Shown here piece by piece: positions 1 to 57,900 of a DNA stretch of 64,000 nt. Below the pieces are notes generated by a model. That model had not been told where the DNA came from. It did not search any database and saw nothing but the letters and a program-made list of their open reading frames with translations. The translations under genes and the position numbers were made by a program. The DNA lies in contig JACCXN010000020.1 of assembly GCA_013696965.1 (NCBI GenBank), positions 1 to 64,000 of the forward strand, written 5' to 3'. The stretch's first letter is position 1. The number at the start of each line of letters is the position of its first letter. The DNA is from Bacteroidota bacterium (GTDB lineage: Bacteria; Bacteroidota; Bacteroidia; JACCXN01).

Positions 1-3000
1 CCCCTCAGTAAGCATTACTAGATCACCTTTGGGGGCAATTTGCGCTGGGACTTCTGTTACATTTACAGCAACCCCCACAAACGGTGGAACTACTCCTGTT
101 TATCAATGGAAATTAAATGGGGCCAATGTGGGAACAAATTCTCCTACTTATACCAATGCTACCCTTATAAACGGAAATACTGTTTCCTGCGAGATGACAT
201 CGAATGCTGTTTGTGCCAGTCCAACAACAGTTGCATCTAATGTAATTACTATGACGGTGACACCAACTGTTACTCCCTCAGTAAGTATTGCACGTTCACC
301 TTCAGGCACAATTTGCGCTGGAACTTCTGTTACATTTACAGCAACTCCAACAAATGGAGGAACTACTCCTGTTTATCAATGGAAATTAAACGGGGCCAAT
401 GTGGGAACAAATTCTCCTACTTATACCAATGCTACCCTTATAAACGGAAATACTGTTTCCTGCGAGATGACATCGAATGCTGTTTGTGCCAGTCCAGCAA
501 CAGTTACATCTAATGTAATTACTATGTCGGTTTCATTAACAGTTGCACCATCTGTAAGCATTTCTATGTCCCCGTCCGGAGAAATTTGTGCTGGAACTAA
601 CCTTACCTTCACAGCAACTCCAACAAATGGAGGAGTAAATCCAGGCTATCAATGGAAATTAAATGGAGCAAATGTGGGAACAAATTCTATAAATTATTCC
701 AATTCTTCATTGGTCAGTGGTGATGTAATTCATTGTGAAATAACCTCAAGCTTAACATGTTCAAGTCCAGCAACTGCAAGTTCCAATACCATAACTATTA
801 CCATTTCTTCATCCATTACTCCTTCAGTTAGTATATCTCAAACACCAGCGGGGTCATTTTGCTCTGGCACTACCCTTAGCTTTACCGCAACACCTGCCAA
901 TGGGGGGTCTGTACCTTCTTATCAATGGTTATTAAACGGATCTAACGTAGGACCGAACTCAAGCACTTATTCTAGTTCTATGCTCAATGACGGGGATGTA
1001 ATAAGTTGTATTATGACTTCTGAATTATCCTGCGCTAGTCCAACTGCAGCAACTTCTAATTCCATTACCATTACAGTTATTCCTAATGTTGTTCCTATTG
1101 TTAGTATTGCAGCATCACCTTCTGAGACAATATGTGAAGGAACTGCAGTTACATTTACAGCAACTTCTTCAAATGGTGGAACTAATCCTATATATCAGTG
1201 GAAATTAAACGGAATTAACGTGGGTACTAACTCTGCAACATATTTCAATTCTTCCCTTGTCAATGGAAATAGTATAAGCTGTGAAATAACATCTAACGCT
1301 GCATGTGCAAGTCCAACCAATGTTACTTCCAATACTGTGACCATGTCTGTAACCCCAACCGTTGTGCCTTCTGTAAATATTACTGCATCACCCTCAGAGA
1401 CAATTTGCGAAGGGACTTCAGTTACCTTTACTGCCTTAGCATCTAATGGCGGTGCCGCACCGGATTACCAATGGAAACTAAATGGAGCAAATGTAGGAAC
1501 AAATTCAAGTACTTATACCAATTCTACTTTACTTAATGGTGATGTACTTACTTGCCAAATGACTTCAAATGCCACTTGTGCGAATCCTCAAATGGCAACT
1601 TCAAATTCTATATCTATAACCGTAAGTCCAACTGCTGTTCCAACTGTAAGCATTGTAGCATCACCTACAGGAACAATTTGTGAGGGAACCACGGTTACTT
1701 TTACTGCAAGTGGAATAAACGAAGGCAACACTCCAATTTATCAGTGGAAATTAAACGGAAACAATGTTGGATCTAATTCTCCTATTTATACCAATGCAAC
1801 ACTATCCAACGGGAATACTATTACTTGCGAATTAACATCAAATGCTGCCTGTGCAAATCCAACAACTGTTTTTTCCAATAGTATTTCAATTACAGTAAGT
1901 CCAAGTGTTGTTCCTTCATTAAACATAAGCTCTTCGCAAACAGGTGTAATATGTAATGGAACCTCTGTTTCCTTTACTGCAAGCCCTGTTAATCAAGGAG
2001 CCTCTCCATTATATCAATGGACGTTAAACGGAACATTTGTTGGTACAAATTCAGCAACTTATTCAAATACATCTTTAAGTAATGGTGATGTTATTGTCTG
2101 CCAAATGACTTCAGATGCATCCTGTGCAAGCCCCTCCACTGTTACTTCCAATACAATAACTATTACAGCTAGTCCAAATGTTGTTCCCTCAGTAAATATT
2201 GTAGCCTCACCTTCAAGTGCAGTTTGCTTTGGAACTGCAGTTACCTTTATAGCTACCCCTACTAATGGAGGAGCAACACCAGTTTATCAATGGAAATTGA
2301 ATGGTGTAAATGTAGGTACAAACGCTGCTTCTTATAGCAACTCGACATTGACAAATGGAAATATAATAAGTTGTGAAATAATATCAAATGCTCCCTGTGC
2401 AAGTCCAACAATGGCTAATTCCAATGTTATTTCCATGTCCATATCCAACATTAGTTTAATCACTACAACTTTTAATGCTTCCTGTTTTGGTTCGAGCAAT
2501 GGAAATGCATCAGTAAGTGCAAACGGAGGACAAGCTCCTTATACTTTTTTATGGAATGATGCATCATCTCAAACAACAAATACAGCAAGTGCTCTGACTG
2601 CGGGCAATTACACGGTTATCGTTACAGATAACAACGGATGTGTTCAAACTTCAGAAGTTATAATTACTCAACCTGCTCCAATTAATTTAACTGTAACATC
2701 AGTTAGTAGTAAATGCGGTCAAAACAATGGAAGTGCTACTGTTCTTGCTTTGGGAGGAACGGGCATTTACACCTATTTATGGAACGATCCACTTAATCAA
2801 AGCACATCCACTGCAAATGCCTTAGCAGAAGGAATTTATACTGTAACTGTAATGGATGGCAATAACTGCTCTAAATCTACCGGAGTTCAAATTGACAATA
2901 TTAGCACTATGGAACTAACAGTAGATATTAGCAGTGTTACTTGTTTTGGCGCAAACAATGGATCAGCTACTGTGAATGTAAGTGGCCCGGGTGGAATAAC

Positions 3001-3741: not shown

Positions 3742-3904
3742 AAAAACGAATAAATTAAAAATTATGAAATAGCCATGAAGCGAACTTTGCACAAACAGCA
3801 ATGAATACAACATGGCTATCCCGATAAATCGGGATGACAATTAAAAAACAAATGCTGTAGCATTCATGAGTTCCTTAGAGGAATTATTAAAAACGAATAA
3901 ATTA
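3742..3904. repeat. Dispersed palindromic repeat element flanked by 16-bp direct repeats
   Basis: The sequence AAAAACGAATAAATTA occurs at 3742-3757 and again at 3889-3904, bracketing an element of about 131 bases. Inside are an 8-bp inverted repeat TAGCCATG (3770-3777) / CATGGCTA (3811-3818) and, directly adjoining it, a hairpin ATCCCGAT-AA-ATCGGGAT (3818-3835). The core from GAAATAGCCATG to CGGGATGAC recurs at 57426-57497. The second direct repeat is the leader of the porP/sprF gene that starts at 3912. This looks like a REP- or MITE-like insertion, but no transposase is present to confirm mobility. Confidence 0.65.
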
Positions 3905-3911
3905 TATACAT

Positions 3912-4829
3912 ATGAAAAAAACGATAGGTTTTATTGTATCCATTTCATTGATGGGTTGCTTTACTTTATCTGCGCAACAGTTACCTCTTATAAGCCAGTA
4001 CGTGCAAAATGATTTTGTATTAAACCCTGCCATTGCAGGCAATAAGGATTATGCTCCCATTCGAACTTCAATACGGAATCAATGGGCCGGGTTAGAAGGA
4101 AACCCTAACTCGCAAACATTAAGTTTTCATAGTGCAATGAAGAACCCAAAAGTCGGAATAGGCGCTTTCCTATTTAATGATAAAATCGGGCCAATCTCCC
4201 AAACAGGCATAAGTGCCTCTTATGCATATCATCTTAAATTATCCAATGAGTCAAAATTATCCTTTGGGTTATCCGGCTTGCTCTCGATTCATCAATTAAA
4301 TACAAATCAACTTAAATTTGATCAGCAAAACAATACAGACAATGTGCTAACTACAGGGGATTTCAAGGCTTATTATCCTAATTTTAGTTTTGGAACTTAT
4401 TATACAGGAAAAAATTATTATGTAGGCTTATCCATACCTGAATTAATTCAAACCAAAATATCAAACTCCAAGGATTATTTTATAATTCAACAGGCCAGGC
4501 ATTATTATTTAACGGGTGGATATAAATTCAAGTTGAATGAAAACTATACTGTTTTACCATCCTTTCTAATAAGATATGTAAGTGCCGCACCAATTGGAAT
4601 TGATATTAATGCCTCTTTTGAAGCTTTTGAAAAATTCAATTTCGGTATTTCATATAGAAAAGCTGACGCAATTGTGCCTTTTTTCGGATTCAGAATTAAA
4701 GAAACTTACATTTTGTGTTACTCCTATGACATTACAATGAGCGGATTAAACAAACATACCAGGGGTTCCCATGAAATAACATTGGGATATAATTTACATC
4801 GTAAAAAATCAAATGCAAGCATTCAATAG
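3912..4829 (+). CDS. PorP/SprF family type IX secretion membrane protein
   Basis: A 305-residue outer-membrane protein. The signal peptide (residues 1 to about 21) ends in TLSAQQ, followed by the family hallmark start LPLISQYVQNDFVLNPAIAG. The rest alternates short beta-strand-like stretches, as expected for a 14-strand barrel. Family members partner with a specific giant T9SS adhesin (SprF with SprB), and the repeat adhesin ending at 3640 is the obvious partner; that pairing is inference. The ATG at 3912 is the first in frame and is followed by a lysine-rich signal. A dispersed repeat sits in its leader and may affect transcription or translation. Confidence 0.88.
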   Translation: MKKTIGFIVSISLMGCFTLSAQQLPLISQYVQNDFVLNPAIAGNKDYAPIRTSIRNQWAGLEGNPNSQTLSFHSAMKNPKVGIGAFLFNDKIGPISQTGISASYAYHLKLSNESKLSFGLSGLLSIHQLNTNQLKFDQQNNTDNVLTTGDFKAYYPNFSFGTYYTGKNYYVGLSIPELIQTKISNSKDYFIIQQARHYYLTGGYKFKLNENYTVLPSFLIRYVSAAPIGIDINASFEAFEKFNFGISYRKADAIVPFFGFRIKETYILCYSYDITMSGLNKHTRGSHEITLGYNLHRKKSNASIQ

Positions 4830-16536: not shown

Positions 16537-16727
16537 CTGCAAGTGTAGCTGAAAGCTACACGGCAATTGGGCGTAGTTGAAAACTACGCCAAGCGCTAGT
16601 GCTACCTTAGTCGCTGGCAGAAAAGCAAAAGTCTTTTTTTTCATTTTTAAAAAAAATCAATTTTTACCGCTGGGCGTAGTTTTTAACTACGACCGAAAAT
16701 TCAGGTAGCTTTCAGCTACTCTTGCAG
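16537..16727. repeat. Nested inverted-repeat element with four internal hairpins
   Basis: The ends are a 23-bp inverted repeat (16537-16559 and 16705-16727, 22 of 23 matching), each arm being itself a hairpin GTAGCT-GAA-AGCTAC. Inside lie two more hairpins built on another word: GGCGTAGTT-GAA-AACTACGCC (16570-16590) and CGTAGTT-TTT-AACTACG (16675-16691). It sits between the convergent merR-type and hldD genes, so it may also act as a transcript end. It is non-coding. The layout resembles a REP-derived bimodule or a MITE. Confidence 0.7.
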
Positions 16728-57415: not shown

Positions 57416-57620
57416 TACAAATTATGAAATAGCCATGCACGAACCGTTCACAAACGCTAATGAATATAACATGGCTATCCCGATAAATCGGGATGACCTT
57501 TAAAAAACAAATTATATACATATGAAATAGCCATGCACAGAACGTGCGCAAACACGCATGAAGATAACCTGGCGTATTCCATATGACAACTAAAAAATCA
57601 AATTATCTACATATGAAATA
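57416..57620. repeat. Tandem array of the dispersed palindromic repeat (two units plus a partial third)
   Basis: Unit A (from about 57416) has TAGCCATG (57430-57437) / CATGGCTA (57470-57477) and the hairpin ATCCCGAT-AA-ATCGGGAT (57477-57494), matching the copy at 3764-3838. Unit B follows 98 bases later with a degraded core (no CCCGAT hairpin), and the boundary ACATATGAAATA recurs once more 91 bases on. The link ATTATATACATATGAAA is the same as the leader of the PorP/SprF gene at 3901-3917. Confidence 0.7.
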
Positions 57621-57663
57621 AGTAGGCTTGCTCTATATTCTGCAGATGGTGCTTTTTTTTTAA

Positions 57664-57900
57664 TTTCACAGAGCGCACAGAGGAGTCACAGAGGATCAAA
57701 AAAATCAGGGAATCTCTGTGGTCCTCTTTGACTTTTCTGTAAAACTCTGTGAAACTATACTTTTTAAACTACACAAAGGGCACAAAGGAGTCACAGAGTT
57801 GCACAGAGCGAAAAAAACAAAAAAATCAGGGAATCTCTGTGACTTCTCTGTGGGACTCTGTGAAGCAATGAATCAGTGCAGTTTTTTTGCCCTTTGTGAA
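57664..57900. repeat. Paired 'CACAGAG' long-hairpin repeat
   Basis: Two imperfect long hairpins in tandem. Unit 1 runs from TTTCACAGAG (57664-57673) to its complement CTCTGTGAAA (57745-57754). Unit 2 runs from ACACAAAGGGC (57771-57781) to GCCCTTTGTGA (57889-57899). Both loops end with the same 23-base stretch (57698-57720 and 57819-57841; ATCAGGGAATCTCTGTG core). Words such as CACAGAG and CACAAAG recur throughout. It is non-coding. Confidence 0.75.

Follow-up and report, generated by a model that had tools for sequence, protein, structure and literature searches.

Comparative evidence for a mobile repeat element that may restore start codons in Bacteroidia

Repeat units in the 64-kb window

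The window, meaning the whole 64-kb stretch of DNA analysed, comes from contig 20, one of the 106 contigs that make up a 3.86-Mb genome, and carries three short repeat units, all on the plus strand (Table 1). A first-pass annotation had described two copies of a palindromic core (3764–3838 and 57426–57497), both of which are present, with arms and palindrome located in each and 88% identity over a 73-nt core. Beyond that description, a third and more diverged unit follows the second in tandem, the rightward extent of copy 1 reaches the ATG at 3912 and that of copies 2 and 3 reaches 57612, and the right end of copy 1 coincides exactly with a gene start codon, start-codon insertion being the key property of the family. 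With up to two mismatches, ATGAAATAGCCATG occurs five times in the window, a count that 0 of 100 shuffles reached. The gene upstream of unit 1 (window 2–2458) contains nine 273-nt direct repeats of 60–91% identity, and behind the second array (window 57656–57798) lie imperfect CACAGAG/GTCACAGAG repeats together with one 38-nt direct repeat pair.

Table 1. Repeat units and associated features in the 64-kb window
Feature	Position	Strand	Basis or remark
Unit 1, long (~150-bp) subtype	3764..3911	+	from left ATGAAA to last base before porP/sprF start codon
Unit 1, left ATGAAA (target copy in the insertion model)	3764..3769	+	sequence; analogy with empty sites
Unit 1, hairpin 1; arms TAGCCATG/CATGGCTA at 3770–3777/3811–3818 flank a variable loop	3770..3818	+	stem covariation across genomes
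Unit 1, nested palindrome CCCGATAAATCGGG	3820..3833	+	sequence
Unit 1, right end: A-rich leader and ATGAAA (ATG 3912–3914)	3886..3917	+	match to right-end model R1
porP/sprF, start codon at unit 1 right end	3912..4829	+	Pfam PorP_SprF, E 5.5e-82; ORF list
Unit 2, 98 bp; arms TAGCCATG/CATGGCTA at 57430–57437/57470–57477, nested palindrome CCCGATAAATCGGG at 57479–57492	57424..57521	+	sequence; BLAST; right-end model
Unit 3, 91 bp, without nested palindrome; guide region CCATATG; head to tail with unit 2	57522..57612	+	sequence; right-end model
Terminal ATGAAA of second array	57613..57618	+	stop codon next (M-K-stop), no gene start

The units follow a common plan, ATGAAATAGCCATG – loop – CATGGC(G)TATTCCATATGAC – A-rich stretch – TATACATATGAAA, in which each unit spans one ATGAA to the next and consecutive units, which often stand head to tail, have the final ATGAAA in common. 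Three subtypes of about 90 bp, 98 bp and about 150 bp were distinguished, the 98-bp subtype bearing the palindrome CCCGATAAATCGGG in place of part of the CCATATG region and the longest one a further insert. Similar CCCGAT palindromes occupy other positions in the units of another genome (G266), and nested CCCGAT-ATCGGG palindromes vary in position by genome (both copies in the window; loci L182, L183, L187 and L189). Because these palindromes sit at differing positions, the nested palindrome is apparently a separate repeat, seemingly a second palindromic one that inserts into the first.

Copy number, spread and position at start codons

The suggestion that the two copies belong to a genome-wide family was borne out, as the unit query gave 90 places by BLAST in the same genome and 129 matches were obtained with a model of the 50 rightmost bases, corresponding to about 130 units; the tail of the long subtype, as in copy 1, gave 59 places. 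The opposite case, of only two copies without structure, is excluded. Many units are found at contig ends, so the arrays probably break the assembly.

In a model search, the architecture recurred in 75 of 395 Bacteroidia genomes and 36 of 197 genera, to which a phylum-wide sample added single-contig genomes and one genome outside the class (G500). Between genomes the loops and stems diverge and the plan stays constant, with the right end again mostly at a gene start codon. In two species (G568 and G683; L256 and L257) one and the same gene, whose protein begins MKEQDLFYLLALQRIEGVGDI, has a unit at its start codon, an inherited insertion. An Rfam scan of ten loci left the units without a match, and no description of start-codon insertion, the sequence motifs or matching Bacteroidetes REPs was found in the open-access literature.

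The preference for start codons was quantified in the genome of the window, where the terminal ATG of 22 of 41 array ends opens an ORF of at least 100 aa on the same strand, against a baseline of 9 in 124 window ATGAAA sites opening an ORF of at least 60 aa. In this genome roughly every second array end lacks a long ORF after it, the second array of the window among them, which weighs against the start-codon reading. Compared with 94 native start contexts from sampled loci, the right end, consisting of the A-rich leader as ribosome-binding stretch and the ATG, ranked at the 98th percentile; since it brings both leader and ATG, insertion swaps the leader and does not break the gene. The downstream genes are unrelated to one another, encoding PorP/SprF, ThiC, Maf, an FAA hydrolase, an M61 peptidase, a response regulator and others. 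At the thiC locus (L041:2472–2748, minus strand), four units lie between a TPP riboswitch (L041:3028–3125) and the gene, an array tolerated inside a regulated leader or operon.

On the left side, conservation of the flanks begins only at ATGAA. A role of the left ATGA as a stop/start overlap signal was considered and dropped as evidence, the count being 6 of 40 with 5 and 2 in the other two frames. Some left ends read AAGAA or GTGAA instead of ATGAA, which counts against the insertion model.

Empty sites, arrays and stems

Predicted empty sites were built from filled loci of two genomes (G266 and G156) by joining the left flank up to ATGAA with the codons after it, and were then searched in congeners. 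Contiguous empty alleles were recovered for five loci in seven species comparisons, each joined exactly at ATGAA. In the genome of the window, one unit (L073:1674–1770) interrupts a RAYT-type gene (L073) at an internal AATGAA, and once 90 bp are subtracted the resulting reading frame of 183 aa can be aligned gap-free with L072, an intact paralogue in the same genome, the two being 88% identical. This insertion at an internal AATGAA indicates that the target is ATGAA and not the start codon as such. Comparison of filled and empty alleles shows an element that is mobile and targets ATGAA(A), often at a gene start codon, and the excess at start codons would reflect the survival of harmless insertions. 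In a second genome (G250) a reverse-orientation unit apparently lies inside another RAYT gene (L165, near 1369–1480); for units inside RAYT genes in two genomes there are two readings, RAYT genes as neutral ground or a genuine link.

By this comparison, the element inserts at an existing ATGAA, often that of a gene start codon, leaving the left ATGAA on the old 5' leader, and places its own terminal A-rich leader and ATGAA where the start codon of the gene stood. A single insertion adds about 90 bp, one ATGAA included; the one extra ATGAA per insertion is invariant, so that duplication of the target and a copy borne by the element look identical. Insertions elsewhere in genes would mostly be purged, and those at start codons would persist since translation is restored. 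A mobile, start-codon-restoring element is judged highly probable from these sequence comparisons, a judgement that covers this reading and not the enzyme.

Neighbouring units within arrays share a mean identity of 91.8% and random units 90.8%, and as neighbours are hardly more alike than random units, the arrays are not local duplications. The alternative that they are local tandem duplications of 5' leaders, produced by slippage or recombination with transposition playing hardly any part or none, would account for the head-to-tail order and for the variants shared between neighbours in a few arrays (L050, L031), but it is at odds with these near-equal identities, with the existence of single units and empty sites and with flanks that differ from locus to locus, and is extremely improbable. 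Repeated insertion as the origin of the head-to-tail arrays is supported. New units would enter at the regenerated start codon beside the gene, older and more decayed units lying upstream. The gene-distal unit is more diverged from the family than the gene-nearest one in 17 arrays, with the reverse in 5, a pattern in line with growth at the gene end but equally predicted by stronger selection on the unit next to the gene.

Two stems are evident within the unit. The arms of hairpin 1 pair over a mean of 7.0 bp within units and 3.6 bp with shuffled arms, and the second stem joins the internal CCATNTG to the right end CAN'ATG, where 70 of the 82 distinct strings show pairing at N and 27 would be expected to. 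For the two stems together, an alignment of 30 sequences with one row misplaced gave 22 double-change cells against 5.4 in shuffles, with 0 of 500 shuffles as high, and slid controls failed. In a tandem or a circle the N:N' pair would extend hairpin 1 instead, and covariation alone does not pick the structure. The internal TTCCATNTG is a putative guide that would pair with both the left ATGAA and the right-end CAN'ATGAA; the left ATGAA does pair with it but is invariant.

The same stems could belong to a cis-regulatory RNA (an attenuator, thermometer or translational switch) retained because it acts on the gene that follows, in which hairpin 2 would hide the start codon. The location of the units in 5' leaders, the folding of both hairpins as RNA, their covariation and the ATG within the second stem agree with such a function, yet covariation is equally expected of single-stranded DNA, the genes downstream are unrelated, congeners have the same genes without a unit, units also occur inside a RAYT gene and before no gene, and Rfam offers no match. 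A regulatory RNA is accordingly considered very unlikely. A further reading goes beyond the insertion model and is put forward tentatively, with somewhat less than even confidence: the units would constitute a distinct class of single-stranded DNA element homing to start codons through base pairing, a single internal guide, TTCCATNTG, reading both the target ATGAA and the element's own right-end CAN'ATGAA, with the inserted end serving as the translation start of the host gene, widespread in Bacteroidia over long evolutionary time.

Candidate enzyme, related systems and significance

The element may move as single-stranded DNA, with an HUH/Y1 enzyme of RAYT-like type acting in trans to cut and rejoin it, and a Y1-type single-strand mechanism with the TTCCATNTG guide is a serious possibility, although short of probable. 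Y1 genes are present in 259 of 395 genomes of the class and correlate with the element, occurring in 64 of 75 element-positive and 195 of 320 element-negative ones; the 11 positives without any Y1 gene include G214, which carries units. With a protein from the genome of the window as query, assigned by motifs and phylum, RAYT subclass 2.6 was found in 47 of 75 positive genomes (63%) and 90 of 320 negative ones (28%; p 4e-8, phylogeny ignored). Among the 28 positives without this subclass, 17 have another Y1 gene, near background, which adds little. No autonomous copy with a gene replacing the loop between the same ends was encountered among 203 scanned right ends and the Y1 loci, and none of 42 Y1 loci and 26 subclass 2.6 loci holds a Y1 or RAYT gene flanked by units. 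The few units near a Y1 gene are inside a gene or at neighbouring genes; one in G089 (L190) lies 280 bp behind an IS200-type gene and occupies the start codon of an epimerase-like gene; its proximity to the former was put down to chance.

Of subclass 2.6 (Bertels group 5, Bacteroidetes), only the genes are known, described as having 'atypical secondary structures' (PMC6006769). The hypothesis that a resident RAYT of this subclass mobilises the units as a REP family concerns the enzyme and family, is compatible with the insertion model and is rated less likely than not. The excess of such genes in positive genomes (phylogeny ignored), a GTCA near the hairpin foot on the other strand and the high copy number speak for it; the absence of a flanking unit at all 26 subclass 2.6 loci, the other repeats that accompany the Y1 genes of the genome of the window, the units of G214 and the 28 positive genomes without the subclass speak against it. 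One of these Y1 genes (L067:1140–2450) is set amid many ATCCCTACGGGAT repeats, a separate REP-like family, and L066 has another (TCCATAACCCCCGGTTTAAACCGGGGG). The window itself contains an inverted repeat, CTGCAAGTGTAGCTGAAAGCTAC/GTAGCTTTCAGCTACTCTTGCAG (16537–16559 and 16705–16727), 96% complementary and 145 nt apart, which resembles repeats flanking the L073 RAYT gene and is possibly the REPIN of that gene.

The initial description as a non-autonomous, REP/MITE-like element stood in part: empty sites support a mobile, non-autonomous, hairpin-forming element and the likeness is fair, but membership in either the REP-RAYT or the MITE group fails on the defining features tested. Like the REPs and REPINs of TnpA-REP (RAYT) systems, the units are short palindromic hairpins in many copies, mainly outside genes, clustered and without a gene of their own, and they tend to co-occur with subclass 2.6 genes (phylogeny ignored). 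Unlike them, they form no REPtron with any RAYT gene examined, measure about 90–150 bp with two stems, target strictly ATGAA at start codons and restore the translation start with their right end. The tetranucleotide GTAG/GT[AG]G is missing from the 5' foot of the hairpin; subclass 2.6 is itself reported without GT[AG]G. MITEs are likewise small, non-autonomous and numerous, with a short direct repeat at the borders, but the units lack terminal inverted repeats (the second arm of hairpin 1 is internal and the ends are not complementary), and their border repeat is always ATGAA.

The ends of IS200/IS605 elements and of derived non-autonomous elements share with the units the terminally placed hairpins and an insertion point 3' of a short, fixed target without variable target duplication, as seen in the empty sites joined at ATGAA; pairing of a guide with both cut sites, as in those elements, is suggested for the units by covariation. 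The units differ in having no Y1 gene inside and no full-length Y1 relative found with the same ends, in a putative guide on the gene strand, located at the 3' foot of hairpin 1, that is seemingly common to both ends, and in an identical pentamer at both borders. MIRU or integron-type arrays also consist of head-to-tail units of about 100 bp near genes with possible growth from one end, but they differ from the dispersed insertion at ATGAA found here (empty sites, a unit inside an unrelated gene), and the units carry no cassette genes. Some integrative elements insert into the end of a tRNA gene and restore that end; the units similarly insert into a gene end and rebuild it, but act on protein start codons, are tiny and have no integrase.

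Some mobile DNA spares its host by landing where genes are few or by reconstituting a tRNA gene end. In the insertion model the safe site is the start codon itself, and any protein gene starting with ATGAA is a possible landing place; homing by base pairing, if true, would make this a safe-site strategy. Each landing would replace the 5' leader of the gene with a standard and apparently strong one, with the potential to rewire the translation signals of dozens of genes in a genome. The arrays may account for assembly breaks, and their recognition would aid the reading of start sites in Bacteroidota. The family also lends itself to tests of how start codons might be located through base pairing.
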